Source: a virus
Virus record (IMG/VR): IMGVR_UViG_3300008450_000018
Coordinates: 1-64,000 of that record
Direction: 5' to 3' (one strand)
DNA: 64,000 bases
Shown here: one piece after another, positions 7,180 to 26,486 of the stretch
How positions within the stretch are numbered: the stretch's first letter is position 1
Layout of the letters: the number at the start of each line of letters is the position of its first letter
Notes under the pieces: model-generated
Seen by the model: the letters and a program-made list of their open reading frames with translations, nothing else
What the model was told of the DNA's origin: nothing
The model's database searches: none
Made by a program: the position numbers and the translations under genes

Positions 7180-7418
7180 AGATCAAAGTACATGAATTTT
7201 TGATGAGTGACGTAGATGACTTTGCAATCTACGCCGCTGAACCTTTATATAATTGGGAAAAAAGCGAACAAGGTCAGTGGGTCATGAATAATGCTGTTGA
7301 CAAACCTTCATGGCATTCAGGTTGGGACCATGTCACTTTTCAAAATAAAGTAACTATAATTGCAGATTTGGAAGAAAAAGATCTAACATATTTTAATCTT
7401 AAATGGGGTGTTAAATGA
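7176..7418 (+). CDS. Small conserved phage protein, LKW family
   Basis: An 80-residue acidic, Trp-rich protein ending LTYFNLKWGVK, close to the LFALKWL/LFTLKWL ends of the small proteins at 2716 and 1075. It is coupled by four-base ATGA overlaps both to thymidylate synthase upstream and to the NDP-sugar epimerase downstream, so it is certainly translated in this operon if they are. Function unknown. Confidence 0.75.
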   Translation: MKIKVHEFLMSDVDDFAIYAAEPLYNWEKSEQGQWVMNNAVDKPSWHSGWDHVTFQNKVTIIADLEEKDLTYFNLKWGVK

Positions 7419-8389
7419 AATTCTTAGTAACAGGCGGTGCAGGCTTTATTGGGCACAATGTTGTCAGACAATTAGAGAGTCAGGGTCACGAATGTTTTAT
7501 TCTAGATAATTTAACTACATATGGGTTTGTACCTAAAGAAGAAATGGCGTATCTTTCAAAAGAAAGAACGAAAAGAATTCGAGCCAGCGTACATAGAGTA
7601 GATCTACGTGACGAAAAATATGTAAATGATTGGTTTCTAAATTTTTCAAATAACACCGATGCTATTATCCATCTTGCCAGTTTTCCCCGACAGAAAGTAG
7701 TAAGTCAAAATCCAGTCTGGGGCAGTGAAGTTATGAGCACTGCATTAGTTCGATTGTTGGAATTAACAAAGTCTTATAAAATACCTAAGTTTGTTTATAT
7801 CAGTAGCAGCATGGTCTATGGAGATTTTAACAATGACGTCACCGAAGACAGTGTATGTAATCCACAAGGGCAGTATGGTATAATGAAATACATGGGCGAA
7901 CAATTGGTCAAAGATTATAACCGTCGCGGTTGTTTTGATTATTCTATCATCAGACCTAGCGCAGTGTACGGCGAATGGGACGTAGAAGACAGGGTTGTTT
8001 CAAAATTCATGCTAAGTGCAATGAGAGACGAAACACTTAAAGTCAAAGGTGCCAGCGAAGTATTAGATTTTACTTATGTAGAAGACACTGCACAAGGCAT
8101 TGTTCGTGCAGCTACTATGAAACAAGCCAACAGTGAGATATTTAATATAACTCGTGCAGACACCAAACTATATACACTTTTAGATGCAGCCAATATTGCA
8201 ATTGAAATTGCCGGCAAAGGCAAAGTCGAAGTTCAAGGAAAAGATGCAGATTTTCCCAGTCGCGGGCGTTTAAGTATCGATAAGGCTGTTCGCTTACTAG
8301 GTTATAATCCAACTACCAGTGTTGAACAAGGATTTGAAAAATATCATAATTGGTTTAAGGCCAGTGAATTTTGGAAGTCAAAACTATAA
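7415..8389 (+). CDS. NAD-dependent NDP-sugar epimerase/dehydratase (extended SDR)
   Basis: A 324-residue short-chain dehydrogenase of the extended type. The N-terminal Rossmann loop is TGGAGFIGHNVV, followed by an Asp at the end of strand 2 (ILDNL), the SSS strand YISSSMVYG, the catalytic YGIMK (Y-x3-K) and the substrate-site RPSAVYGE. This is the family of UDP-glucose 4-epimerase and related NDP-sugar enzymes; the exact sugar cannot be read. It is coupled to the sugar aminotransferase that follows, so together they probably make an amino sugar nucleotide. Confidence 0.9.
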   Translation: MKFLVTGGAGFIGHNVVRQLESQGHECFILDNLTTYGFVPKEEMAYLSKERTKRIRASVHRVDLRDEKYVNDWFLNFSNNTDAIIHLASFPRQKVVSQNPVWGSEVMSTALVRLLELTKSYKIPKFVYISSSMVYGDFNNDVTEDSVCNPQGQYGIMKYMGEQLVKDYNRRGCFDYSIIRPSAVYGEWDVEDRVVSKFMLSAMRDETLKVKGASEVLDFTYVEDTAQGIVRAATMKQANSEIFNITRADTKLYTLLDAANIAIEIAGKGKVEVQGKDADFPSRGRLSIDKAVRLLGYNPTTSVEQGFEKYHNWFKASEFWKSKL

Positions 8390-12388: not shown

Positions 12389-12827
12389 CGATTTGTTCTA
12401 CTGAAACTTTACATTTGTTTAAAAATTCAACGCCAGAAGTATCACGATAAGCTTGACCAAAATAAACTTTTTTTATTCCGCTTTGATAAATCAGTTTAGA
12501 ACATTCTATGCACGGTGCATGAGTAATAAACATTGTTGCTCCATCCCCGCTTTCACTACTTCGTGCTAATTTGCTGATGGCGTTCGATTCTGCGTGGATC
12601 ACTTCGGGTTTTGTTTTTAATTCGTAGTCGCCTGTTTTATCCCAAACTTTGTTTTCACAGTTGTTATCCCATCCTGCAGGCATGCCGTTGTAGCCAATGC
12701 TGATAATTCTATCATCTTTAACTACAATTGCACCCACATGCAGTCGACGAGCATGGCTGAGTTCGGCAAATGTTTTTGCAGTCTGCATATATGCTTGTAT
12801 TAATTTTTGTTTCATTTTCTTAGCCAA
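12381..12827 (-). CDS. cd: dCMP deaminase
   Basis: A 148-residue zinc deaminase that converts dCMP to dUMP, the substrate of thymidylate synthase. The zinc site is complete: HAESN (His ligand and catalytic Glu) and PCIECSKLI (two Cys ligands). ARRLHVGAIVVKD and SIGYNGMPAGWDN are typical of the ComEB/T4 Cd family. It lies apart from frd and td, inside the decoration operon, between a sulfotransferase-like gene and a glycosyltransferase-like gene, with 16- and 8-base overlaps. This is the only clear nucleotide-metabolism gene on the minus strand. Confidence 0.94.
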   Translation of the reverse strand: MAKKMKQKLIQAYMQTAKTFAELSHARRLHVGAIVVKDDRIISIGYNGMPAGWDNNCENKVWDKTGDYELKTKPEVIHAESNAISKLARSSESGDGATMFITHAPCIECSKLIYQSGIKKVYFGQAYRDTSGVEFLNKCKVSVEQIDV

Positions 12828-13489
12828 CTTACTTCATCCCAATTATTACCTGTTGGATTAAATTTTGCCACTACTTGAGAATAAAGTTCGATATCTGCAG
12901 CCAAATAGTTTAGTACTTCTTGGTTAGGATTTTCTTCAAACATTTCTTTTATTTTTAATTCCAATGCTTTTTTCTTTTTACTTGATTCATTTGTGTTATT
13001 GACATTTCTAAACATGTGTATGTTATATTTTTTTAATAACATGTCTGTTAATTGAATCACTTGGTCAGGAGAAATAATGTCTATGGGTATCCAGTCAATT
13101 TGATTGCAGTATTTTCCTAAATTTTCTGAGATTGACACGGAATGAAAATCAAGTAACTTAGAATTTAACACTAACTGTTGTAAATTAGAATCTATATAAA
13201 ATTGATTTGCTAGACTGTTTTCATATAACCACTGTGTTATAGCCTTGTATCTTCTAGTCAATGGATCTGATATAAAAGAAAATACACACCCTTCCCAATT
13301 AATTTCATTAAATGTAGTCGGCGGCCATCGATGATTAACTTTAAAAATTTCTCTGAAAAAAGTAGATGCGTTTTTCAACGTAACTATGTACGTTAAAACA
13401 TCACAAGAGTACGTCTCTACGTAAGATCCAGCCCTGGGTTCAAAAGAATTGAACTTGTTTATATCGACAATATAAGGAGTTATGTCCAT
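12812..13489 (-). CDS. Sulfotransferase-like protein
   Basis: A 225-residue protein related to the interrupted gene at 14497-15114 over its whole length. TLKNASTFFREIF (about residue 37) resembles the 5'-phosphosulfate-binding K-x-[AG]-[CS]-T-S loop, and FSFISDPLTRRYKAI (about residue 70) resembles the 3'-phosphate-binding F-[VI]-R-D-P-x-x-R-x-x-S-x element of carbohydrate sulfotransferases, although the first Arg is replaced by Ser. The C-terminus is helical (EEN...DIELYSQVVAKF). The nearby APS kinase would supply its donor PAPS. The acceptor is unknown, and family membership is by motif only. Confidence 0.6.
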   Translation of the reverse strand: MDITPYIVDINKFNSFEPRAGSYVETYSCDVLTYIVTLKNASTFFREIFKVNHRWPPTTFNEINWEGCVFSFISDPLTRRYKAITQWLYENSLANQFYIDSNLQQLVLNSKLLDFHSVSISENLGKYCNQIDWIPIDIISPDQVIQLTDMLLKKYNIHMFRNVNNTNESSKKKKALELKIKEMFEENPNQEVLNYLAADIELYSQVVAKFNPTGNNWDEVSWLRK

Positions 13490-13490
13490 A

Positions 13491-13706
13491 TTAATCTATA
13501 GATATTTGTTTACCCCATTTAATCAAATTCCATACTCTTTCGTGTAGAAAGTATAACAGGGTATTAACAGTTATTTGCAATAACGCAATACTACCAGCAA
13601 TCGAAAAATCACCTGTAATAACGTATGATATTATAAACGTAGCTCCGCTACCAGTCAATCTCCAGCTAATCGTTTTAATAAAACTTCGCTGGATACTGTC
13701 TGTCAT
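13491..13706 (-). CDS. DUF2061 small membrane protein
   Basis: A 71-residue protein with two predicted transmembrane segments: ATFIISYVITGDFSIAGSIA and LLQITVNTLLYFLHERVW. The N-terminal SFIKTISWRLTGS and C-terminal HERVW...WG match DUF2061. This family is small, membrane-bound and often found near sulfate-activation genes. Here it is coupled by a four-base ATGA overlap to the APS kinase fusion. No biochemical function is established; the context points to sulfate or sulfated-product metabolism. Confidence 0.85.
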   Translation of the reverse strand: MTDSIQRSFIKTISWRLTGSGATFIISYVITGDFSIAGSIALLQITVNTLLYFLHERVWNLIKWGKQISID

Positions 13707-14497
13707 TTTAAACCTAGTTCTTTTCTAATTTTAGTAGCACTAATATCAGTAATCGACTCATCGAATGTTTCTTCGCCCGCTGAATATCCCACGCCACGAC
13801 CCCAACCTATATGCACAATATTTGGAACTACTTGTATGTCGTATTGCCCTTGGTATAGTGGATCTAAGTCTCGACGAATAAATGATTTTACTTTTTCTAC
13901 TTCAAAAGGGTTAGACCCTTGCCATCCCTGTACATCACGAACTTGAATCATAACTTGGCCTGTGCGCTGTAGCAGTCTTTCGAATAGTGCGCGGTGACCA
14001 TCATGCCATGGTTGCCAGCGACCCAACATCTGTACTGTTTCTTTTTTCCAATCAAAAGTAGGACGGCGACGATCATCGACGATATGCTCAGCAATAAAAT
14101 CTGCCCACTTGGCAGCGTTCTGTTCGGTAATCCGGAAATCATAAACTTCGGGCTCCACAAACATTTTATTAGTGTCGGCGTAACGACCTTCACGTATAGT
14201 GTCCATCCATACAGTCCAATCTGCTTTAAAATTGTTACGCATTTCGACTAAGGGTGCAACAAAGTCGCACAGTGCATAATCTGTATTACAAGTAGCAGAC
14301 AACTCGGACATACGCTTGCTTTGCCTAATACGCCCTGCTTCGCTGAAATCCCAATCATTGAATTGTTTACGTATTTCATCTGCGTTAAACCAAGTTACAG
14401 TTTTGCCATTTGCTTCTAGCAACTTTTTTAATTCTGTTGCCAAATAAGTTTTTCCTGCACCGGGCAGGCCCATTATTAAAATCTTTGATGCACTCAT
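13703..14497 (-). CDS. Adenylylsulfate kinase / nucleotidyltransferase fusion
   Basis: A 264-residue bifunctional protein. The N-terminal P-loop GLPGAGKTYLA, then NADEIRKQFNDWDFSEAGRI, marks an APS-kinase-like domain, which phosphorylates adenylylsulfate to PAPS. From about residue 150 a cytidylyltransferase-like domain follows with QPWHDGHRALFERLL (HxGH signature) and the C-terminal SATKIRKEL (ISxTxIR-type motif). Some family members may act on other substrates, so PAPS synthesis is likely but not proven. Neighbours fit a sulfation module: DUF2061 downstream and two sulfotransferase-like genes around it. It starts in a TAATG overlap with the upstream interrupted gene. Confidence 0.85.
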   Translation of the reverse strand: MSASKILIMGLPGAGKTYLATELKKLLEANGKTVTWFNADEIRKQFNDWDFSEAGRIRQSKRMSELSATCNTDYALCDFVAPLVEMRNNFKADWTVWMDTIREGRYADTNKMFVEPEVYDFRITEQNAAKWADFIAEHIVDDRRRPTFDWKKETVQMLGRWQPWHDGHRALFERLLQRTGQVMIQVRDVQGWQGSNPFEVEKVKSFIRRDLDPLYQGQYDIQVVPNIVHIGWGRGVGYSAGEETFDESITDISATKIRKELGLK

Positions 14498-15114
14498 TAT
14501 GTTTCCTTTCTTAAGTTTTCAAATAATTCTATATCTTTTCTAAAATAGTCTAAAATATGTGTGTTGTTTTTATTGTCTGTGAATCTTTGTTTTATTTCTC
14601 TTGTTAAAGATTGGCTATCAACCCCTGCTATATTTTTAAATCCTCAATCAAAATTTGTCCATCTAAGTATTTTTTGTGATTGAAGAAATTTGTCTGTGTT
14701 TTCTATAGTTTTATCATAATTGTCATAATCACAGATAATCCATTGAATTTTTGTAATCTTTTCACCTAACATTTCATGATAACTTGCGCTATGATTGTCG
14801 ATATACGGAAGATTTATAATATAATCTCGGAATTCTGCATTTACTCTGAATTCTGTGTGTAAATTGTTACGAATCAACCAATGAGCAATTCCTTTATGCC
14901 TACGTTCAATCGGATCGGCTAAGTGGCTAAAAATTAATTTATTTTCCCAATCTATATCTTTATATTCTATTGGCTCCCATTTCATACCATTTATAAAATT
15001 GTTATAAAATAAAGAAGAAACACATCGATAGTTCCGTAAATAAATTAAATGAGCAGTAGTGCAAGCTTGCCCCAAATTTGAATTTGTTACAACTATTTCA
15101 GCATTAAAGGTCAC
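14497..15114 (-). pseudogene. Sulfotransferase-like gene interrupted by in-frame TGA
   Basis: The first 156 codons encode a protein ending LRWTNFD at TGA 14644-14646. The same frame stays open for another 48 codons, through DIELFENLRKET, to a TAA overlapping the APS-kinase ATG. These codons align with the C-terminus of the intact paralogue at 12812-13489 (TDNKNNTHILDYFRKDIELF against EENPNQEVLNYLAADIELY). So the gene was once about 205 residues. Motifs YLRNYRCVSSLFY and FSHLADPIERRHKG match the donor-binding elements of sulfotransferases. A nonsense mutation, stop readthrough or a sequencing error would all fit; the truncated protein keeps both donor motifs and could still act. Confidence 0.75.
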
Positions 15115-16592
15115 GACAATACTTTTACTCCGTATAATTGTTCAAATCTGTCAGCGTCGACCCGGTCATTGACCATAGGTTCACCCCTAATGTTTAGACT
15201 AGTATTTAATAGCATAGGACAATCTGTGACAATAAACCATTTTTCTAAGAGTTCTCTGATTCCCGATCCGTCCTTGGGCACAGTCTGAACACGACTAGTT
15301 CCATCATGATGCACAATAGCAGGAAATAAGTCAGGACTACGGCAACAAGCGACTGACTGCATATAAGGACTATGATCGAAGCCAGGGGGCATATCAAAAT
15401 ACTCGCTAGCGTATTCTGCCAGAATAACTGGCGCAAAAGGTCTGAACTTTTGTCTACGTTTGATTTCATTTACTCTATCCTTAATATCATTTCCTCTGGG
15501 GTCAGCCAATAAACTACGATTGCCTAATGCTCGCGGGCCGAATTCTGCGCGGCCACTTGCCACACCAACAATACGATCACGCAAAAGAGTATCCAGGGCG
15601 TCATTAACAGGGTAAGAGCCAGGAATAAGATGACCCAGATAAGCATCATTCCAATTAATGCGGCCGCCATAAACAAGAGCAGCGGCACCAAGACTAGACC
15701 CTGCATCCCCGGGATTAGGCATAATCCAAATATTTTCAAAGTATCCTCCTACACAGCTATTAATACTACAGTTAAGAGCAACACCGCCCATGTATACCAG
15801 ATTAGAACTCCAGTTAAAATCTTTTGCTCTACGCATGATATTTAACACTAAATCTTGGGTCAGATCTTGTGCGCTGGCTGCAATGTCCATATCTCCTACG
15901 TAGGACAAATACTTTTGTTCTATGCCCGTATGAAGATTTTCTTTAAATTTAATTTCCCATTCATTGTGCAAAAATTTGGACTTAAATAAATCAGTGAACG
16001 CTGGCACACCATATGCTGCCATACCCATAAGAATATATTCTTCTTCATTGGGTTTAAGACCAACACGTTCTGTCATTGCACTGTAAAACAGTCCTATACT
16101 ATGCGGATATTTTTGACGCCATAATCTTTTATAAACGGCTTTTCCTTGAACGTATTCTGCTGCCCAAATGCTTATTGTATCCCATTCACCAATGGCATCG
16201 ATTACAACCACCGTGGCTTTGTCAAATGGGCTTGTCTGAAACCCTGCAGCCGCGTGGCATAGATGATGATTGTGCGTTGAAATCGGTCCTGGGAAATTAG
16301 AAAATTCTTTGCCTATTTGCCTATTAAGAATCTGTCGAACAGTTAATTTATTCCATTCAACACCTTGACCGCTGTACAGTTGTCTTAACTGTTTATTCCA
16401 TGGTCGTTCATAGTAAGCAACATGGTCAATTCTATAATTAATTATTTCTTTGATTATACCAGGACTTAAATTTGGATCGTTTTTAATTTTACTATAGCGT
16501 TCACTGTGACCCGCATATAATATATTTCCATGATAGTCAATGACACTTAATGCAGCATCATGGAATCCTGCAGATATTCCTAAAATATTCAT
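15111..16592 (-). CDS. NodU/CmcH-family O-carbamoyltransferase
   Basis: A 493-residue enzyme that transfers a carbamoyl group from carbamoyl phosphate, through carbamoyl-adenylate, to a hydroxyl group, usually of a sugar. The N-terminal ASKHA-like fold starts NILGISAGFHDAALSV; the metal site HHLCHAAAGF lies near residue 108; VVIDAIGEWDT follows. The C-terminal YrdC-like half has GVASGRAEFGPRALGNRS and LNTSLNIRGEP. All family hallmarks are present. Members such as NodU, CmcH and TobZ modify Nod factors, cephamycin and aminoglycosides. Here it sits between the radical SAM block and the sulfation genes, with four-base overlaps on both sides. Acceptor unknown. Confidence 0.93.
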   Translation of the reverse strand: MNILGISAGFHDAALSVIDYHGNILYAGHSERYSKIKNDPNLSPGIIKEIINYRIDHVAYYERPWNKQLRQLYSGQGVEWNKLTVRQILNRQIGKEFSNFPGPISTHNHHLCHAAAGFQTSPFDKATVVVIDAIGEWDTISIWAAEYVQGKAVYKRLWRQKYPHSIGLFYSAMTERVGLKPNEEEYILMGMAAYGVPAFTDLFKSKFLHNEWEIKFKENLHTGIEQKYLSYVGDMDIAASAQDLTQDLVLNIMRRAKDFNWSSNLVYMGGVALNCSINSCVGGYFENIWIMPNPGDAGSSLGAAALVYGGRINWNDAYLGHLIPGSYPVNDALDTLLRDRIVGVASGRAEFGPRALGNRSLLADPRGNDIKDRVNEIKRRQKFRPFAPVILAEYASEYFDMPPGFDHSPYMQSVACCRSPDLFPAIVHHDGTSRVQTVPKDGSGIRELLEKWFIVTDCPMLLNTSLNIRGEPMVNDRVDADRFEQLYGVKVLS

Positions 16593-16694: not shown

Positions 16695-17795
16695 TTATTT
16701 ATTGAGTAAACTACTGCTGTAATCGTAACCAGGTTTTAATCTTTCGATTTGTTGATCATAGTAGTCTTTGTCCGACCAAGTATAAGAATAGACAGAGCGT
16801 AAAATGTTTCCCGACCCATCATCGCATTGAATTGAATATATGTCTAAATAACTCGATAGTATGGGCCAAACTTCGCTGTATTTGATCGTACCAAAACTTC
16901 TTTGTAAGTCAACTTGCCCCACTGAATGATATCCGAAATTATATTGATTATCTTCGGGATCGAATCCATTTCGTTCAAGCCATGATTTAAACCCAGACAT
17001 TTCTTTGGTGTACCAAGGGTGAGGCCCATTATAACATACGTCCTGTGCCCATTCGATATCAAACTCGCCGCTGTAGTAACGTAGATGTGTAATAGCATCA
17101 CAGGTTGTCTTGTCGACGTCAACTCCTTTTTCATCTCTATAAACTTCAAACAGTGTTTTGCCAATCTGTGTCCAATGTAAGTAGACTTCCCCGAATTTTC
17201 TATCATACCTTGATTCTTTAAAATTAGTTTTATATGTTGACGGAAATTCGTATCGCGAGGCATTTAGAAATGTAGTGATTTGACTAGGCCTAACCCACTC
17301 AGGCAATGTTGCTTGTTTACGTTGACTCAGCATTAAACTCTCTGCTTCGTGACATAGATTATTCAATTGTCTGATAGCGAATTTAGTTGTATAATCTGCT
17401 TGTTTATAATAATCACTGAGTCCCCACACAGTTCCTTGCAAAATTTCAAAATGGTTATGCAATTTGTTCATTAACTCTTGATTAGGATTTAATGTTTCAG
17501 GATTTCGTAGAGTAAAAGGGTAAAAGTTTTCTTCTATTTTATACTCGCCTTGGAAGAAATCATTTATTACATTCTTGACCCAGAATAGTTCTCTACAAAT
17601 ATATTCTAAATCTCTTTGACTGTCGGGAAATCCCAAGAAGCAAAAGTTTTTTTCCAGATATTTGTGTTGCTGTACAATTTCTTGTAATGCCGTAAACCAT
17701 CGCTGAGCCATTTCATGCTCGTAGACATTGATAATATAGTCTAATGTTTTTGTTTTATCTAACGGATTTCGTAGTGTTATTATTACTTTATTCAA
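16695..17795 (-). CDS. Unknown 366-aa protein of the radical SAM operon
   Basis: A 366-residue soluble protein that I do not recognise. It starts MNKVIITLRNPLDKTKTLDY and is rich in Trp, Tyr and charged residues. Notable segments are FCFLGFPDSQRDLEYICREL (about residue 51), GEVYLHWTQIGKTLFEVYRD (about 206) and SGEFDIEWAQDV (about 248). No P-loop, Rossmann loop, metal cluster or membrane segment is visible. It overlaps the radical SAM gene upstream by 8 bases and so is probably made together with it. It could be a substrate carrier, a structural partner or an enzyme of unknown type. Confidence 0.75.
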   Translation of the reverse strand: MNKVIITLRNPLDKTKTLDYIINVYEHEMAQRWFTALQEIVQQHKYLEKNFCFLGFPDSQRDLEYICRELFWVKNVINDFFQGEYKIEENFYPFTLRNPETLNPNQELMNKLHNHFEILQGTVWGLSDYYKQADYTTKFAIRQLNNLCHEAESLMLSQRKQATLPEWVRPSQITTFLNASRYEFPSTYKTNFKESRYDRKFGEVYLHWTQIGKTLFEVYRDEKGVDVDKTTCDAITHLRYYSGEFDIEWAQDVCYNGPHPWYTKEMSGFKSWLERNGFDPEDNQYNFGYHSVGQVDLQRSFGTIKYSEVWPILSSYLDIYSIQCDDGSGNILRSVYSYTWSDKDYYDQQIERLKPGYDYSSSLLNK

Positions 17796-19080
17796 TTGAA
17801 TTCCACCATTTTAATACTTCAGGTTTTGTTGAGAGTATATCACGCATAGTATAACTATCATTTCGAATTTGTTCAAGTCTTTCGATTCTTGCTTTTCCTT
17901 TACGCAAACCAATTTGATATTCGTTGGGCCATTGTTCCTTAAAGGTGGGTCTAGTTTTTAGTTGGACAAGTATATCCTTTAACGGATTATTACTAGTACC
18001 ACTTATGATTTCGTCTGCCCAAGGATGTAATAATTCCCGGGGAAGAGATAAAGGTGACATAACTATGTCTGGACTAAAACTAAAAATTACTTTCGCGAGA
18101 ATATCGACTTTTTCTTCTTCTGCAAGTCGCTGGATATTAGCAATTTCGAACATGCCGGGCAAAGTGAGCGTAAAGTCAATTCGCATTTGACGTCTGTGAC
18201 TAGCGATTTTAACTCCTTCACGGAAGTTTGCAAGCCAAGAATTGTAGTCAAGGCCTGTTCTAATGTATTCTCCAATTTTTCCTGTGCCGTCGATACTTGC
18301 ACAAATCTGCCAATCACGAAGCCCGCTGAGAATATCATTATAAAGATTGATACCTTTATAATTAATTCTTGATAAGTTTGTATTGTATCTAGCGTAAACA
18401 TTTGGGCCGTCTCCTAATTCTATTATTCTCTGCATGTATCTCCAATGTTGCTCATACATGAGAGGCTCGCCCCCTACCCAATATACTTCTTCGACTCGAT
18501 GCTCTTCGACGGCTTGACTAAACTCTGCCTCAATTTGTGTGTCTTGAAACTGTTCAATTTGTTTTTTGATTTCGGGCTGCATCCAATTATTTTTTGGATC
18601 CGCCCAATTGATCATGTTGTGTTGTCGTTGCTCACTTTCCCAAGCACTGCTTAACATGTCTCCACACATTCGACATTTAAAATTACAAAGATTACTAAAT
18701 CTGTAATCCCAGCTCACAGGCTTCATATCTGTTGAGCCGTCGTGGCAAGTTTTTTCCATTGCTTCATTGTACTTATGACCAAACAATTGATTAAAATAGC
18801 TACGGTAAACATTGGTGTTTAGCAATTTGTCGTTGCATACTTCACACTCTGGCAGAGTTTCGCCGGCCATCATTCGACGCCGAACAGATTTCATATGTTC
18901 ACTATTCCAATGTTCATCTAAATTAATTGGTATATATTTTCCAGTACCAGACTTAGTATCTATGTACTGTTGAAAACTTTGTGCTGGTTCGCGACTTGCA
19001 CAACACATTCTGCGTTCTGTTTGTGGACTCAGATATGTATGTGTCCACGGTGCAAGGCAAAGAGTAAGCGGTTTATTCAT
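17788..19080 (-). CDS. Radical SAM protein 7 (LPW-like class, N-terminal auxiliary cysteines)
   Basis: A 430-residue radical SAM protein, the last of seven in the operon. The cluster loop CNFKCRMC (about residue 130) should bind a [4Fe-4S] cluster and S-adenosylmethionine, followed by SSAW and the GGEP motif (VGGEPLMYEQHW). Before the core lies a cysteine region CLAPW...RMCC...CEVC that resembles a SPASM/twitch-type auxiliary cluster placed at the N-terminus. EYIRTGLDYNSW is shared with its six relatives. The reaction and substrate are unknown; twitch/SPASM enzymes act on sugars or peptides. It overlaps its neighbours by 8 bases on each side. Confidence 0.88.
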   Translation of the reverse strand: MNKPLTLCLAPWTHTYLSPQTERRMCCASREPAQSFQQYIDTKSGTGKYIPINLDEHWNSEHMKSVRRRMMAGETLPECEVCNDKLLNTNVYRSYFNQLFGHKYNEAMEKTCHDGSTDMKPVSWDYRFSNLCNFKCRMCGDMLSSAWESEQRQHNMINWADPKNNWMQPEIKKQIEQFQDTQIEAEFSQAVEEHRVEEVYWVGGEPLMYEQHWRYMQRIIELGDGPNVYARYNTNLSRINYKGINLYNDILSGLRDWQICASIDGTGKIGEYIRTGLDYNSWLANFREGVKIASHRRQMRIDFTLTLPGMFEIANIQRLAEEEKVDILAKVIFSFSPDIVMSPLSLPRELLHPWADEIISGTSNNPLKDILVQLKTRPTFKEQWPNEYQIGLRKGKARIERLEQIRNDSYTMRDILSTKPEVLKWWNSIE

Positions 19081-20278
19081 AGCCCATGGCCTTTGCTATT
19101 TCGGGATGTGTATCCATAAAATTTTGTTTTCGATAAGCATCTGTGCGCTTCATATTGTTTAAAAATATTTGCCCGTCGCTGCCTGCACCGTTTTCGATAA
19201 ATTTAATTACATTTTCAATTTCTTGGTGATGTTCCTCTGTGTTCCAAAAAGTTGTTTTAAGTTTATTCAAAACTAATTCTTTGGCTGCAGGAGTTAACTG
19301 TTGAATACTCATATGGTCTGGGCTGTGCAACATATTAAAATAAATGCTGTCAAAAGGTTTGGTGCTTGCCCAGGCCAGTAATTCATCTAAGTAATATACA
19401 TTTTGAATATTAATAGTGAAACAAAGTTGAGTAGTAATGTTAGGCGTGTCAACGTCACGGGCAAAATGAACTCCGTCGATTATTTCGTTGGCCTTATCCC
19501 AATCTGCCCCGTATCGTTCATATTCAAATCTTTCACCGACATTGTCGATGCTAAATGCAATATCTACACGACCAAAATTATTCCATAAAGCTGATTTTTG
19601 TATGCCTAACCCGTCGATAGTTGCATTGGTATTATAATGAATATCGATATGTTTACTATGGCCTGTTGCTACTGCATATCGTAGTAAATCCCAGTGTTCT
19701 TCGATTAACCAAGGCTCGCCCCCGGTAAATTCAAAATACTTAATATTGGGTAGTAACGATTTTAAATTCTCCCAAAAATTAGGACTCTCCTCTGGCCACT
19801 TACCTTGTTTAAGCCAAGTATATGCAACATGTTTTTTCTTATCATGTCCTTGCGGCAAATACTCTAATTCTTCTGCCGCCCACTTACTACTGCTCCAACT
19901 GCCGCATATCCTGCACTTTAAATTACAAATGTTGCCCAGCTTTAAATCAATGAACCATAATTGATCAGGAACATCGTTTTGCCAATCGACCAATGGGTAT
20001 AACTCTTTGAGTCTAACTTGACTGTGAATACGTTTACTAGTCCTGTTTGCGGCTTCCTCATCCCAGCATAATTTACAGGTATTTGGTTTTTCGCCGCGGC
20101 GGAATTGTCTACGTAAGTTTTGCATATACTCGCTAGTATATGCATCTTGTAATGTATGTCTTCTAAGATCAACACCAGTAATATCTTCTCTTGCAAGACA
20201 ACAAGGTCTTGCAGTACCCATGGGGCTAGTCTCGATACTAATCCATGGCAACATACAAATACTATTAGGTAAAGTCAT
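19073..20278 (-). CDS. Radical SAM protein 6 (LPW class)
   Basis: A 401-residue radical SAM protein. N-terminal cysteines: CMLPWISIE...ARPCCLARE, then CKLC near residue 79. Core loop CNLKCRIC near residue 116, then SSSKW, and TGGEPWLIEEHW. Later SIDNVGERFEYERYGADW carries the shared Y-x-R-x-G-x-D-W signature. The C-terminus is short, so there is probably no second classical C-terminal SPASM domain. ATG coupling (ATGA) to the upstream radical SAM gene and an 8-base overlap with the downstream one suggest equal, co-translated amounts. Substrate unknown. Confidence 0.88.
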   Translation of the reverse strand: MTLPNSICMLPWISIETSPMGTARPCCLAREDITGVDLRRHTLQDAYTSEYMQNLRRQFRRGEKPNTCKLCWDEEAANRTSKRIHSQVRLKELYPLVDWQNDVPDQLWFIDLKLGNICNLKCRICGSWSSSKWAAEELEYLPQGHDKKKHVAYTWLKQGKWPEESPNFWENLKSLLPNIKYFEFTGGEPWLIEEHWDLLRYAVATGHSKHIDIHYNTNATIDGLGIQKSALWNNFGRVDIAFSIDNVGERFEYERYGADWDKANEIIDGVHFARDVDTPNITTQLCFTINIQNVYYLDELLAWASTKPFDSIYFNMLHSPDHMSIQQLTPAAKELVLNKLKTTFWNTEEHHQEIENVIKFIENGAGSDGQIFLNNMKRTDAYRKQNFMDTHPEIAKAMGYE

Positions 20279-21612
20279 TTATTTTTTAACTCGCTTAATT
20301 CAGGAAATGTGTTCCAAAAGTTTTCTCCCCTGAGATTATCAATTAAATTAATTTCTTGTTTAAATTTACCCCAGTGCTGTGAGCCGTCGGTGGACATTAG
20401 GAAATTAATGGCACTCTTGAATCCAGTTGTTGCTCGTTTTAATGGATCTTGCGGTTCTAACCATTCAATATGTCTTTCGTATGCTGGTTTAATTACTCGC
20501 TCTTTAAATTCTTGCGGGAACAAATCAATCCTATACCATTCAGGACTTTGACAAATATTCACATTAAAATCTTTAGGCTTAATAAATCCCATATCAACCC
20601 ATTCTTTATGAAAATCTAAAACGTGCAATACATTCATAGCACTAATAGTAGATGCAATATAAAAATCTACGTGCGGTACTTCTTCCAACATACGTTCACG
20701 ATTGCGAACTGTTTGTTTCCAGTCTGTGCCTTTTCGCATTAGTTCTGCTCTGGCTCCGCTGGCATCTAAGCTGGCTCCTACTCCTACAGTTCTAAAATGT
20801 TTCCAGTATTCGAATACATGTTTATCTTTAAAAGCTAATTCACTAAAATTTGTATTGTATTGAATACAAACGTCTGTTCGTCCTGCTTCAATAAGTTTTT
20901 CTAATAGATAATAGTGTTCCTTCATAATCAAAGGTTCACCGCCTGCAAAATAAACTTGTTCCAAGTAGGGAATATGTTCTTCCATTTGTGCAATCATATA
21001 ATCTTCGTCGCCAGCAGCATATTCAATTCTGGCCAAATCTTTGCCGTTTACGTCAGGCACTCTATTGAATAATTTGACATGATCATTATACCAATTACTG
21101 CTAAAAACCGGGCCGCACGTTCTGCAACGAAAATTACACAAATTGCTAAACCTAACGTCCCAGTATCTGATTTTAAATTCTGGGTGTGTTCCGTCTGGCA
21201 GTGTTTTATCTACGTCTGCAATATTATGTCCGTAACTACGATTAGCATCATAACGCATACTAAAGAATCCGTTTTCTTCTTGTTCATAACATTTGGTACA
21301 TTGTTTAACTGGCTGATCTGCCATCATTAAACGTCTGATCTCTTTGTACCCTTCTTGGTTCCAAACTTCTTGCATTGAATTCTTTTTTAAATTTCCAATT
21401 GGATGAAAGTATTCTGCAAAGCAACAAGGATACACTCTGCCGTCTGGGTAAGCATGTTGGTGAACCCATGGTAACATACAAAAAGATTTACTGTTCGTTA
21501 ATCTGTTGATTTGAGTTTCTGTCAGCGTTGCAGGATCTGCAAATAATGGTTTCCTACTATTGTAATCGTAACCACGTTTATAAAATCTATCAGTTTTTTT
21601 ATCTTCGCTCAT
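20275..21612 (-). CDS. Radical SAM protein 5 (LPW class)
   Basis: A 445-residue radical SAM protein with the clearest N-terminal auxiliary domain of the group: CMLPWVHQHAYPDGRVYPCC, NLKKNSMQEVWNQEG and CTKC, in the order expected of a SPASM-like domain but before the core. Core loop CNFRCRTC near residue 156, SSNW after it, and AGGEPLIMKEHYY. ASLDASGARAELMRKGTDW holds the family signature in degenerate form. Both ends couple to neighbouring radical SAM genes by four-base ATGA overlaps. Reaction unknown. Confidence 0.9.
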   Translation of the reverse strand: MSEDKKTDRFYKRGYDYNSRKPLFADPATLTETQINRLTNSKSFCMLPWVHQHAYPDGRVYPCCFAEYFHPIGNLKKNSMQEVWNQEGYKEIRRLMMADQPVKQCTKCYEQEENGFFSMRYDANRSYGHNIADVDKTLPDGTHPEFKIRYWDVRFSNLCNFRCRTCGPVFSSNWYNDHVKLFNRVPDVNGKDLARIEYAAGDEDYMIAQMEEHIPYLEQVYFAGGEPLIMKEHYYLLEKLIEAGRTDVCIQYNTNFSELAFKDKHVFEYWKHFRTVGVGASLDASGARAELMRKGTDWKQTVRNRERMLEEVPHVDFYIASTISAMNVLHVLDFHKEWVDMGFIKPKDFNVNICQSPEWYRIDLFPQEFKERVIKPAYERHIEWLEPQDPLKRATTGFKSAINFLMSTDGSQHWGKFKQEINLIDNLRGENFWNTFPELSELKNK

Positions 21613-22958
21613 AGTGTATTATACCAATCTGCCAGAGAAGGAAATGTTTTACAGAAGTCTTTACCTCTGCGCTGATCGTACTGTGTGTAAAATTGTTTGA
21701 AATCACTGCGTAATTTAGACAGCTCAAATGCATCGCTGTGTGGAGTTTTTACAACATCCAAGTAATCTATTAATCTCTGTAAATGATTTATTTCATGCTC
21801 ATGTAAATAGTTATGTCCTTTATGGCGAACAAGAAAATTAACCAATTGATCTTTGTATTTTGATTTAATATCATCAGGCAACACCAATGGACTCTGAAAA
21901 CTAGGAAAACGTAAAATATTTAAAGTAAAATTAGGATAGTCTCGGCCGAATTCTTTCTTTAAGTCTATTAGAGTATCTAAGAAATCAGGCAATGTATCCA
22001 GGCATAATGCATTAATTGTACACATAATATGAAGCCCGCGAAACTTTTTACTGTTAACAAGCTTCATAATATTTTCTAACCACAGAGTATAATTTAAACC
22101 ATCTCGTATATATTCTGCTTGAATGTGATCACTTTCGTTGCTAGTATATAAGTCTATTTCTAAACCATCCACGCTGTCAATTAATCTATCGATATCAACT
22201 TGATAACCTAAATTACTGTTAATAGCTAAACGTGTTTGGCTTTTACCTTTATTAGTTTTAAACCAATCGATTAGTTTCCAAGTTTCTCCACTCATCAAAG
22301 GTTCTCCGCCCGTAATACGTAATTCCTTTAATGTGCGATGTAAGTCTGATTCCCACCATTTATGAAATGCTTCAACATAGGGATTAACTTCGCCAAATTT
22401 ATATAGTTGACTATGATCATGAGTATGAGTAAAATGATTCCTGCCGTCACTAACCAATCCTGTATAAGGCCCGTTACGTTTGATGTCATTGACCCATGTA
22501 CTGCTAAAAGCAGGATTGCAATAACTACAAGCAAACTGACAAGTTCTGTCGAAAGCAATTTCAAGAGTTTGAAGATTGAAATCTTCTCTTGCTGGGGTTC
22601 TGTATGCATATGCCAAATCTTCATCATTGTAAATTACAGTTTTGTATACTCGATCGCTTATTGCATCTCGACCCATGTCTTCGATCTTCCAGCAGTACTC
22701 GCAACCTGACGGTCTTTCGCCCTTCTGCATCTGCTCTCGTTCCATTTTCTTTTTTTGAGTATTGTGCAATGCCCTAGGATTTCGTTCAACATCGTCAATG
22801 TCTACTTTGTGCGGCAAGGGATGGTGGCAACTAGTAGTCATTCCGCTACCTAACCATATAGTAGCATTATACCATTTAGCTCCGCAAAAAGAATTTGATT
22901 TAATGTCGATTACTCTGCGTTTGTAATCTAAGTCTGTTTCATTGTTTATTCTTGGCAT
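21609..22958 (-). CDS. Radical SAM protein 4 (AKW class)
   Basis: A 449-residue radical SAM protein of the second subclass. The N-terminus reads CGAKWYNATIWLGSG...SCHHPLPHK, then CEYCWKIED: the LPW and PCC of the other class are replaced by AKW and CHHP, so its auxiliary cluster, if present, has different ligands. Core loop CQFACSYC near residue 135, SSTW, TGGEPLMSGETW, and EYIRDGLNYTLW. It is closely similar in layout to the 25095 gene (LHNTQKKK / LHNTPYKK; C-terminal RRGKDF / RRGTNF), suggesting a duplication. Reaction unknown. Confidence 0.88.
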   Translation of the reverse strand: MPRINNETDLDYKRRVIDIKSNSFCGAKWYNATIWLGSGMTTSCHHPLPHKVDIDDVERNPRALHNTQKKKMEREQMQKGERPSGCEYCWKIEDMGRDAISDRVYKTVIYNDEDLAYAYRTPAREDFNLQTLEIAFDRTCQFACSYCNPAFSSTWVNDIKRNGPYTGLVSDGRNHFTHTHDHSQLYKFGEVNPYVEAFHKWWESDLHRTLKELRITGGEPLMSGETWKLIDWFKTNKGKSQTRLAINSNLGYQVDIDRLIDSVDGLEIDLYTSNESDHIQAEYIRDGLNYTLWLENIMKLVNSKKFRGLHIMCTINALCLDTLPDFLDTLIDLKKEFGRDYPNFTLNILRFPSFQSPLVLPDDIKSKYKDQLVNFLVRHKGHNYLHEHEINHLQRLIDYLDVVKTPHSDAFELSKLRSDFKQFYTQYDQRRGKDFCKTFPSLADWYNTL

Positions 22959-23979
22959 AGTTGTTAAATTTAGTTGTGAACTCGTCTATTAAATTTTTAT
23001 CCTCACCCGGTGGTTGTGTGGATATCATTACATTCCTATTGTGTCTACAAATATCTTCGGCTTCATTTAAAAATTCTTCTAAATTAGAATTGCAAAGAAA
23101 TTCTACCACATCCACTATTCGATCCAGTCGTTTATCGTTGTCGTCTATTAGATCAAACGATTCATCTATTAGATGACCAAACGTTTTAAATCCCTGATTG
23201 TGTAAATCTCTATAGAATCCATAGTTTGCCACTGCTACAAATGGGTGCCCAATTTTAAGTGGCTTGTAAATTTTTTCTGTTCTAAAGCTATAAGGCAAAT
23301 AAAAATTTGTTTCAGTGACAACACTGAAATAAGAATCTTCAAAAATATTTGCAAATATTTGTCCGTCGGGCCAGTCGTTTAATTTATATTTTCCGTTTAT
23401 TACATTATCACTGTTGACTTGAAATTGGTAGTCTTTGGGCAAAAATTTATTGTCGTAGAGAGCAGACCATAAACTTCGGACTAACAAATCTTTTTTATTT
23501 AATTTTTCTATTAGTAATGAACGATGCGATCTTTCTATTCCATTTAAAAAATTAAACAAAAATGTCTTATTCCTTTTTAAAAAAATTCGATCAATTATCT
23601 TCGAATCTCTTTTTTCGAGCTCGGTTGTTGTACGTCCTAAAATATACCTAAATATGTCTACGGTTACATGTGCTATACCCGGGGGCAAATCTCCCGACGA
23701 CATTATAAACGGTAGACGCACAAAATCATTCCATCCTATTGCCTTTAATGTATCTAACACTGTATTGGTACCTTCGTGTAGCATACTTAGTATAAACAAA
23801 TTTTTGCTGTCCAAGGAAATAATATTTTTTTTAATAATATCCCCCGTTAATAAAACAATACCATTGTTTGAAATTAAACTTTCTACGGTATCGTGCTCCA
23901 TTATTTCAAAGTAATCGGGGTACCAATTAAAGAATTCTAAATCGTCGTTTTTTAACGAGTTAATTTTAATCTTTTGCAT
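22939..23979 (-). CDS. Exostosin/GT-like glycosyltransferase
   Basis: A 346-residue protein inserted between radical SAM genes. The C-terminal third has SYFSVVTETNF and then FRTEKIYKPLKIGHPFVAVA (about residue 231), with GFKTFGHLIDESFD. The E-K-x-x-K-P-x-x-x-G-x-P pattern is typical of exostosin-like and fucosyltransferase-like GT-B sugar-donor sites. The N-terminal half is poorly conserved and may bind the acceptor. It overlaps both radical SAM neighbours (20 and 14 bases). Glycosyl transfer is likely; donor and acceptor are unknown. Confidence 0.65.
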   Translation of the reverse strand: MQKIKINSLKNDDLEFFNWYPDYFEIMEHDTVESLISNNGIVLLTGDIIKKNIISLDSKNLFILSMLHEGTNTVLDTLKAIGWNDFVRLPFIMSSGDLPPGIAHVTVDIFRYILGRTTTELEKRDSKIIDRIFLKRNKTFLFNFLNGIERSHRSLLIEKLNKKDLLVRSLWSALYDNKFLPKDYQFQVNSDNVINGKYKLNDWPDGQIFANIFEDSYFSVVTETNFYLPYSFRTEKIYKPLKIGHPFVAVANYGFYRDLHNQGFKTFGHLIDESFDLIDDNDKRLDRIVDVVEFLCNSNLEEFLNEAEDICRHNRNVMISTQPPGEDKNLIDEFTTKFNNYAKNKQ

Positions 23980-25111
23980 TTAAAAGATCCTTAACTTTGT
24001 CAGGAAGAGTAATGTTTTTTCTATCTTCCCATTGTTTTAAAAAGTGTAAAAATTCTGAAAATAAAGTTTTATTAAATTTGGTTGAAGACAATATACTTAA
24101 AACAACATCAACATTCTTTATATTTTTATTATCTAACAAAGTTAATAACACAGTTTCTGCTTGTTTTTTAATCTTATCCGGAGTTGCTTCAATGCTTTGA
24201 ATTCTGGGATTTTGACCATATGACAATACCCAATGAAATTTATCTTTATATTTTTCTATTCTGGGCAGTATTACAGTAGATGAGAAGTTTTCAATATCGC
24301 AGAGAGTTAAATTAGTCATCAGACTTGATATATTAATTTTGATATTTTCTTCGCTGCGTTCTAATAGATAGTCCAAATTCTTCAAAAATAAATCATAATC
24401 AAGACCATATCTAACAAATTCTGATATTTCATCACAAGAATCTAAACTGGCGTTTATTACAATGTATTTGAATTTATGTCTATTAGATAGTAGTTTATCT
24501 ATTGCTTTTTTATCGACCATTAAATTTGAAGTTACATCTAAAATTCCTTTATGGTCTATCGTATCTAAGATATTAAAAAAATTTTTATTTATTAATGGTT
24601 CACCACCTATTATTCTCAAAGTTTCAAATTTCACAGTGTTTAACAATTCTAAATTTTCATCTATTAATTGCTTATTTTTAATATCTACACTGTAGACATG
24701 TCGATCTGTAAACAATTGATATTTTTGATTTTGTATATCTTTTTCCCATTGACTGCTAAACTTTGGATTACAATACATGCATTGCATATTGCAAGCATTG
24801 CCAACATTAATTTCAATTACCTTAGGCGATTTATTATTTTTATATTCATTAAATGTCGATATATCAAATTTTTTTAAGAATTGAATTCTGAGACTGGTGC
24901 CGTTTGTTTTTTCAGAATTCCAACAATAAGAACAACTTGGATCTTTTACATTGTTTAATAAATTTTGTTTTTGATGATCAATGATTTCATTGTAATCGTT
25001 GACAAATTTTTCTGGCTTTGCTTTACAGCAACCATATACATAGTTATAACTAGTATTGATGATTAGCTCATCCCATTTAGCCGGACAAAAAGTGTCAGGT
25101 AGTTGTTGCAT
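23966..25111 (-). CDS. Radical SAM protein 3 (AKW class)
   Basis: A 381-residue radical SAM protein. N-terminal CPAKWDELI...YGCCKAKP and CSYCWNSEK. Core loop CNMQCMYC near residue 104, followed by SSQW, and IGGEPLINKNFF. ASLDSCDEISEFVRYGLDYD has the operon's shared signature. The sequence is more AT-rich and Lys/Asn-rich than its neighbours, like the adjoining GT-like gene, so these two may have a different history. Overlaps: 17 bases with the gene upstream, 14 with the gene downstream. Reaction unknown. Confidence 0.87.
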   Translation of the reverse strand: MQQLPDTFCPAKWDELIINTSYNYVYGCCKAKPEKFVNDYNEIIDHQKQNLLNNVKDPSCSYCWNSEKTNGTSLRIQFLKKFDISTFNEYKNNKSPKVIEINVGNACNMQCMYCNPKFSSQWEKDIQNQKYQLFTDRHVYSVDIKNKQLIDENLELLNTVKFETLRIIGGEPLINKNFFNILDTIDHKGILDVTSNLMVDKKAIDKLLSNRHKFKYIVINASLDSCDEISEFVRYGLDYDLFLKNLDYLLERSEENIKINISSLMTNLTLCDIENFSSTVILPRIEKYKDKFHWVLSYGQNPRIQSIEATPDKIKKQAETVLLTLLDNKNIKNVDVVLSILSSTKFNKTLFSEFLHFLKQWEDRKNITLPDKVKDLLNAKD

Positions 25112-26486
25112 AATATTTGCATTCCTTCCAAAAATCTACCATTTCTGGAAATGCCAAAATAAAGTTAGTTCCCCTGCGTCGATCATGTTCATTAAAAAAC
25201 TTATAAAAATTTGCTTTTTGCATTTTAACATAATCAGGATCCAACTTGCTACCTTCTCTCATCCAATCTATCACTCTTTGTAACCGCTGGACTTCATAGT
25301 CTTTGAATCCGTGAAATGGAGTTTCGGGCTGTTCCATTTTTGTAATCATAAAGCTCCACGATGTCTCTAGCTGATCGACATAGCTTTCAGGTAATAGTTG
25401 TAAACTTTGCCATTCTGGTTTACGTAGAATTGGAGTATCAAACCAGACACGCTGATATGTTTTGCTGTGTATTTGCCTAAGTCCCAGTATGCAACCTAAT
25501 AGATTTTGAAGTCCCATTACATTTAAATTATTCATAGTAATTATAAATGTTAGACTACTACGATTCGGAACTTCATATAAAAATCTGTTAACGTTATCCC
25601 AAAATCTTTCAAAATTTAATCCATGTCTGATATATTCAGCCTGCATAAAAGTAGCATCTATACTAACATACTGCATGAAATGCTCGATTTTTTTATTCTC
25701 ATTGTCGCACAGTCTTTTTACATAATCCAGATACTTGTCAAATAATGCAGGCTCAACACTGAAATTAGAAGTTACGTTTAAATGTAGCTTGGGACTAGGA
25801 TTTTCTAATACGTAATCAAAAACACGATACGTATTTTTATCCATTAGTGGTTCTCCACCAGTCATCCTAAAATGTTCTAGTTCAGGATATAATTTTGGCC
25901 ACCAAGACCAAAAGGCATCGACATAAGAATTATCTTCTCTTGCAGGGATAACTTTTCTATCTCCCGTAAAATGACTGGGATCATTGTGCGGAGGATTAGT
26001 AGGAAAAGCTCCGCTACGTTCTACGTCACTGGCCCAACTGCTAGAGTATTGGGGACTACAATAACTACAAGCCAGATTGCAAGCATTATTAAAATTAACT
26101 TCTACATAGGAAGGAAGTACATCTTCATCCCCAGTAGAATTAGCTATTGTTTCAAAATCTTTTGCAGCCCATGGTTCCCCACTACGATAATGTCGATCGC
26201 TTAAATTGCCCAAATCTTCTTGTGTCCAACAATAACTACATTCTTGTGGGCGCTCATTATGGAGCATAATCTTACGCTGCTCTTTTTTGTAAGGTGTATT
26301 ATGTAATGCGCTGGGATTATTTTTTACTAGCGTTGAGTCAATTTTATGTAAAGGTGGATGATAACAACTGTTATTGAGACCCGTAGGCAAATGCAAGCTT
26401 ACTTGTTTCCACTTTGCTAAACAAAGAGCAGGACCTAATTTAGATTTTGCTTCTTCAGCCGAGTTTAAAAAAACACTTTTAGACAT
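25095..26486 (-). CDS. Radical SAM protein 2 (AKW class)
   Basis: A 463-residue radical SAM protein. N-terminal CLAKWKQVSLHLPTG...SCYHPPLHKID, LHNTPYKKEQRK and CSYCWTQEDLG. Core loop CNLACSYC near residue 134, SSSW, TGGEPLMDKNTY, and EYIRHGLNFERFW. It is the closest relative of the 21609 gene: same length class, same CxHP motif and same C-terminal FYKFFNEHDRRRGTNFILAF-type segment. Reaction unknown. Overlaps of 8 and 17 bases with neighbours. Confidence 0.88.
   Translation of the reverse strand: MSKSVFLNSAEEAKSKLGPALCLAKWKQVSLHLPTGLNNSCYHPPLHKIDSTLVKNNPSALHNTPYKKEQRKIMLHNERPQECSYCWTQEDLGNLSDRHYRSGEPWAAKDFETIANSTGDEDVLPSYVEVNFNNACNLACSYCSPQYSSSWASDVERSGAFPTNPPHNDPSHFTGDRKVIPAREDNSYVDAFWSWWPKLYPELEHFRMTGGEPLMDKNTYRVFDYVLENPSPKLHLNVTSNFSVEPALFDKYLDYVKRLCDNENKKIEHFMQYVSIDATFMQAEYIRHGLNFERFWDNVNRFLYEVPNRSSLTFIITMNNLNVMGLQNLLGCILGLRQIHSKTYQRVWFDTPILRKPEWQSLQLLPESYVDQLETSWSFMITKMEQPETPFHGFKDYEVQRLQRVIDWMREGSKLDPDYVKMQKANFYKFFNEHDRRRGTNFILAFPEMVDFWKECKYYATTT

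Follow-up and report, generated by a model that had tools for sequence, protein, structure and literature searches.

T4-like phages carry variable genes between conserved ones, and the locus described here resembles their accessory slots in that one and the same junction is empty in some relatives and occupied by unrelated genes in others. It differs from them in that this pattern is established here for a single junction, that of a carbamoyltransferase gene with a kinase gene, and in uncultured contigs. A second point of comparison is offered by the genes and pseudogenes with in-frame stops that have been described in prokaryotes and phages (Belinky et al., 2021; PMC7918605). As in those cases, the gene studied here has a single, apparently recent stop in an open frame, homology on both sides of it and an intact ortholog. 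The difference is that the argument for readthrough in that study is a dN/dS below 1 around the stop, whereas here the ratio is near 1 and the changes are few. The likeness of the gene product to sulfotransferases (Pfam Sulfotransfer families), finally, is one of motifs only.

The locus lies in a stretch of 64,000 nucleotides (hereafter the window), which belongs to a virus record of 81,631 bases in IMG/VR. PHROGs matches of the window genes include a baseplate hub, a late-transcription sigma factor and an SbcD-like nuclease subunit, and these point to an environmental phage with T4-type genes as the source of the sequence.

Results

The interrupted gene (15114-14497, minus strand) is placed between a NodU/Nol-like carbamoyltransferase gene upstream (15111..16592, minus strand; profile matches and junction comparison), whose 3' end forms one edge of the variable slot, and a kinase gene downstream (13703..14497, minus strand), for which profile matches indicate an APS-kinase-like domain followed by a cytidylyltransferase-like C-terminal part (phrog_10255 kinase). 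Its GTG start overlaps the carbamoyltransferase stop as GTGA. Translation of 15114-14499 on the minus strand gives a 5' part of 156 residues (14644..15114), a TGA at 14646-14644, and then 48 more open codons up to a TAA at 14499-14497, the last of these forming a 3' remnant (14497..14643) whose stop overlaps the kinase ATG at 14497 as TAATG. The in-frame stop, the open frame behind it and the overlap with the next gene had all been pointed out in an earlier, sequence-only reading of this DNA, and all three are borne out. The same is true of the proposed likeness between the remnant and the C-terminus of an intact paralogue of 225 aa (12812..13489, minus strand), which follows the kinase gene after a gap. 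In a Smith-Waterman alignment the two tails score 60, against 23.9 +/- 4.6 for shuffles, with 0 of 5000 shuffles reaching 60, and the chance that 48 codons stay open in random sequence of the same composition is about 0.02; the homology of the tail is therefore more than chance would give. A restart inside the tail was rejected, since a scan of its 48 codons found no in-frame ATG, GTG or TTG.

When the protein, a DNA pattern, the paralogue and the family alignment were used as queries, IMG/VR yielded one close relative and, in addition, a homologue at 32%; none that was close was found in annotated phages or, with the alignment, in GTDB genomes. The close relative, G001 (IMGVR_UViG_3300011113_000476), is represented by three pieces (L001, L002 and L012). 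In L001 the gene encodes one continuous protein of 206 aa without an internal stop, and the codon that is TGA in the window is TGG (tryptophan), so that the homologous site, to which the earlier reading had looked for a decision, carries a sense codon. That reading had also allowed for 156 residues being the normal length in relatives; what is found, in favour of that reading, is the 206-aa protein of the relative and a C-terminal region in all its family members. The two copies are 95.5% identical in amino acids over the head (compared with L002) and 94% over the tail. The stop takes away a conserved part of the protein, as Y190, D194 and L197 (L001 protein numbering), all in the tail, are invariant across eight family members. 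In the head, Q96 is invariant in eight family members, the relative included, and is R in the window copy. Based on the intact tryptophan codon of L001 and on the retention of these three tail residues in the family, we take the full-length form to be ancestral and the stop to be derived. The distant homologue (L093, 1901-3621; 32%) is found in another phage contig, where it immediately follows the same kinase and has kept its full C-terminus.

The window and G001 were also compared gene by gene, as two sequences only. The dS is 0.03 in the interrupted gene and 0.45-1.1 in its neighbours, from which it follows that the two gene copies share a very recent ancestor, younger than that of their flanks, and we read this low dS as a recent exchange of the gene. 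The GC content of the gene is also low (0.286 versus 0.367 for the window). Its dN/dS is about 0.87, as compared with 0.03-0.14 for most neighbours, a value based on no more than about 16 changes in one pair of close sequences, and dN/dS is known to be inflated towards 1 when the sequences compared are very close, functional genes included (PMC7918605). About 13 of the 16 changes are nonsynonymous; for seven neighbours together the figure is 406 of 1120 (Fisher p = 0.0003). The count for the interrupted gene fits neutrality, although with one close relative the counts are small and most sites are without polarisation on a tree. No other gene of the compared region is interrupted, the remaining listed stops either preceding a start codon or falling in antisense frames.

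The junction itself varies among contigs. In L013-L016 the carbamoyltransferase gene runs straight into the kinase gene and the interrupted gene is missing, and the slot is empty also in L019, L020, L021, L023, L024, L025 and L069; L015/L016 and L019/L020 come from different samples and are possibly the same phage, so that independent empty slots are fewer than contigs. Elsewhere the slot holds a protein gene of 222 or 220 aa (L017 and L089), of 178 aa (L074, L078 and L085) or of 116 aa (L062), and none of the four slot proteins tested had a Pfam match. Judging from these junctions, the interrupted gene is an optional cassette in a variable slot. Across L017, L062, L074, L078, L085 and L089, at least four unrelated genes were seen in this slot (window 15111-14497), and the slot genes mostly start at, or overlap, the upstream stop codon.

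A Shine-Dalgarno-like AAGAAAGGA is present just 5' of the kinase ATG, inside the remnant tail. With this element of its own, the kinase would be translated independently of the interrupted gene, and in relatives that do not have the interrupted gene it follows the carbamoyltransferase directly. The earlier suggestion that readthrough keeps the gene coupled to the APS kinase is thus unneeded.

The protein family of the interrupted gene was named sulfotransferase-like in the earlier reading. Two stretches in the family alignment, K/R-x-x-S-S close to the N-terminus and DPxxRR, do look to us like the pair of nucleotide-binding motifs of sulfotransferases, and the adjoining APS-kinase-like gene makes such a reading tempting. 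Unlike sulfotransferases, however, the family has no sulfotransferase match in Pfam, PHROGs or NCBIfam and no match among PDB sequences, so that beyond the motifs the name is not confirmed. Predicted structure models had a pLDDT of 45, too poor for a fold search.

Discussion

Our results make it probable that this is a recently exchanged accessory gene that is now decaying, as a young pseudogene or a truncated allele, through a nonsense change. In our model, a gene of low GC content, belonging to a small protein family of phages, would have been exchanged recently into the carbamoyltransferase-kinase junction and, not being under strong selection in the window lineage, would have acquired the nonsense change there. 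Translation would then end at residue 156 of some 205, and the product would lack the conserved C-terminal region, while the 3' remnant would still be recognisable because the event is recent. The in-frame TGA, the unbroken gene of G001, the homologous tail, the presence or absence of the gene among contigs and its low dS are observations; we infer a loss of function of the interrupted gene, and an exchange by recombination between phages. The sequence-only reading had offered three ways to see the stop, as recent, as read through or as an error. The first of these gains from the intact closest relative and from a family that keeps the C-terminal region; for the second, no supporting sign was found.

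The third, an error of sequencing, consensus or assembly in a metagenomic contig whose real phage gene is intact, is the main rival, and we consider it unlikely. The record is indeed an uncultured viral contig of IMG/VR, and the change is one of a few differences lying close together (14644 and 14643, then 14616-14612), a pattern that local assembly of mixed strains could give. On the other hand, the stop involves differences at two neighbouring bases, which is not what one chance base error would look like, the reading frame is without a frameshift in the rest of the gene, and no second compared gene shares the defect. Moreover, the whole gene, beyond the site of the stop, looks unconstrained.

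A still less likely explanation is that the product of 156 residues is functional in its truncated form. The close identity of the head to that of the relative and its unbroken frame would fit with this, as would the fact that the relative's protein already ends about 20 residues short of its paralogues. Nevertheless, the family-invariant residues lie in the part that is lost, and the head itself has accumulated 7 nonsynonymous versus 2 synonymous changes.

That readthrough of the TGA, by near-cognate tryptophan insertion or by a host suppressor, is frequent enough to be useful and gives a modifying enzyme in two forms, one short and one long, is very improbable: the open frame, the well-preserved tail and the in-frame stops with signs of selection reported in prokaryotic genes (PMC7918605) speak for it, but the stop is not conserved, the sister sequence having a sense codon, the 150 nt from the stop have no unusual fold (z = -0.23 versus shuffles) and the changes in the tail are near neutral. 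A structured readthrough signal was rejected on this z value together with the lack of a match to any RNA family or known RNA element near the stop. An alternative genetic code or a suppressor tRNA was rejected as well; the record yielded no tRNA, 15 of 41 genes end in TGA as an ordinary terminator, and the other compared genes are uninterrupted. Low-level natural readthrough of the TGA would be compatible with the sequence, and nothing suggests that it is used.

Taken alone, a decaying gene of this kind matters little, since phage genes that can be dispensed with are expected to yield nonsense alleles. Of mild use is the setting: at this junction accessory genes are gained, exchanged and lost among uncultured phages, with the window copy seemingly caught between gain and loss.

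Other parts of the window differ from G001 as well. The intact paralogue (12812-13489) is AT-rich too (GC 0.305) and is only 45% identical to its G001 counterpart, with neighbours at 82-94%, which suggests that allele replacement may have taken place at this position too. The sugar-epimerase-like gene at 7415-8389 is 66% identical to its G001 counterpart and is flanked by better conserved genes, possibly another sign of mosaic exchange. Further along, window 17788-26486 holds several adjacent radical-SAM-like genes that resemble one another and have cysteine motifs; one gene of this run has a Pfam Radical_SAM match, and the others were read as translations only.
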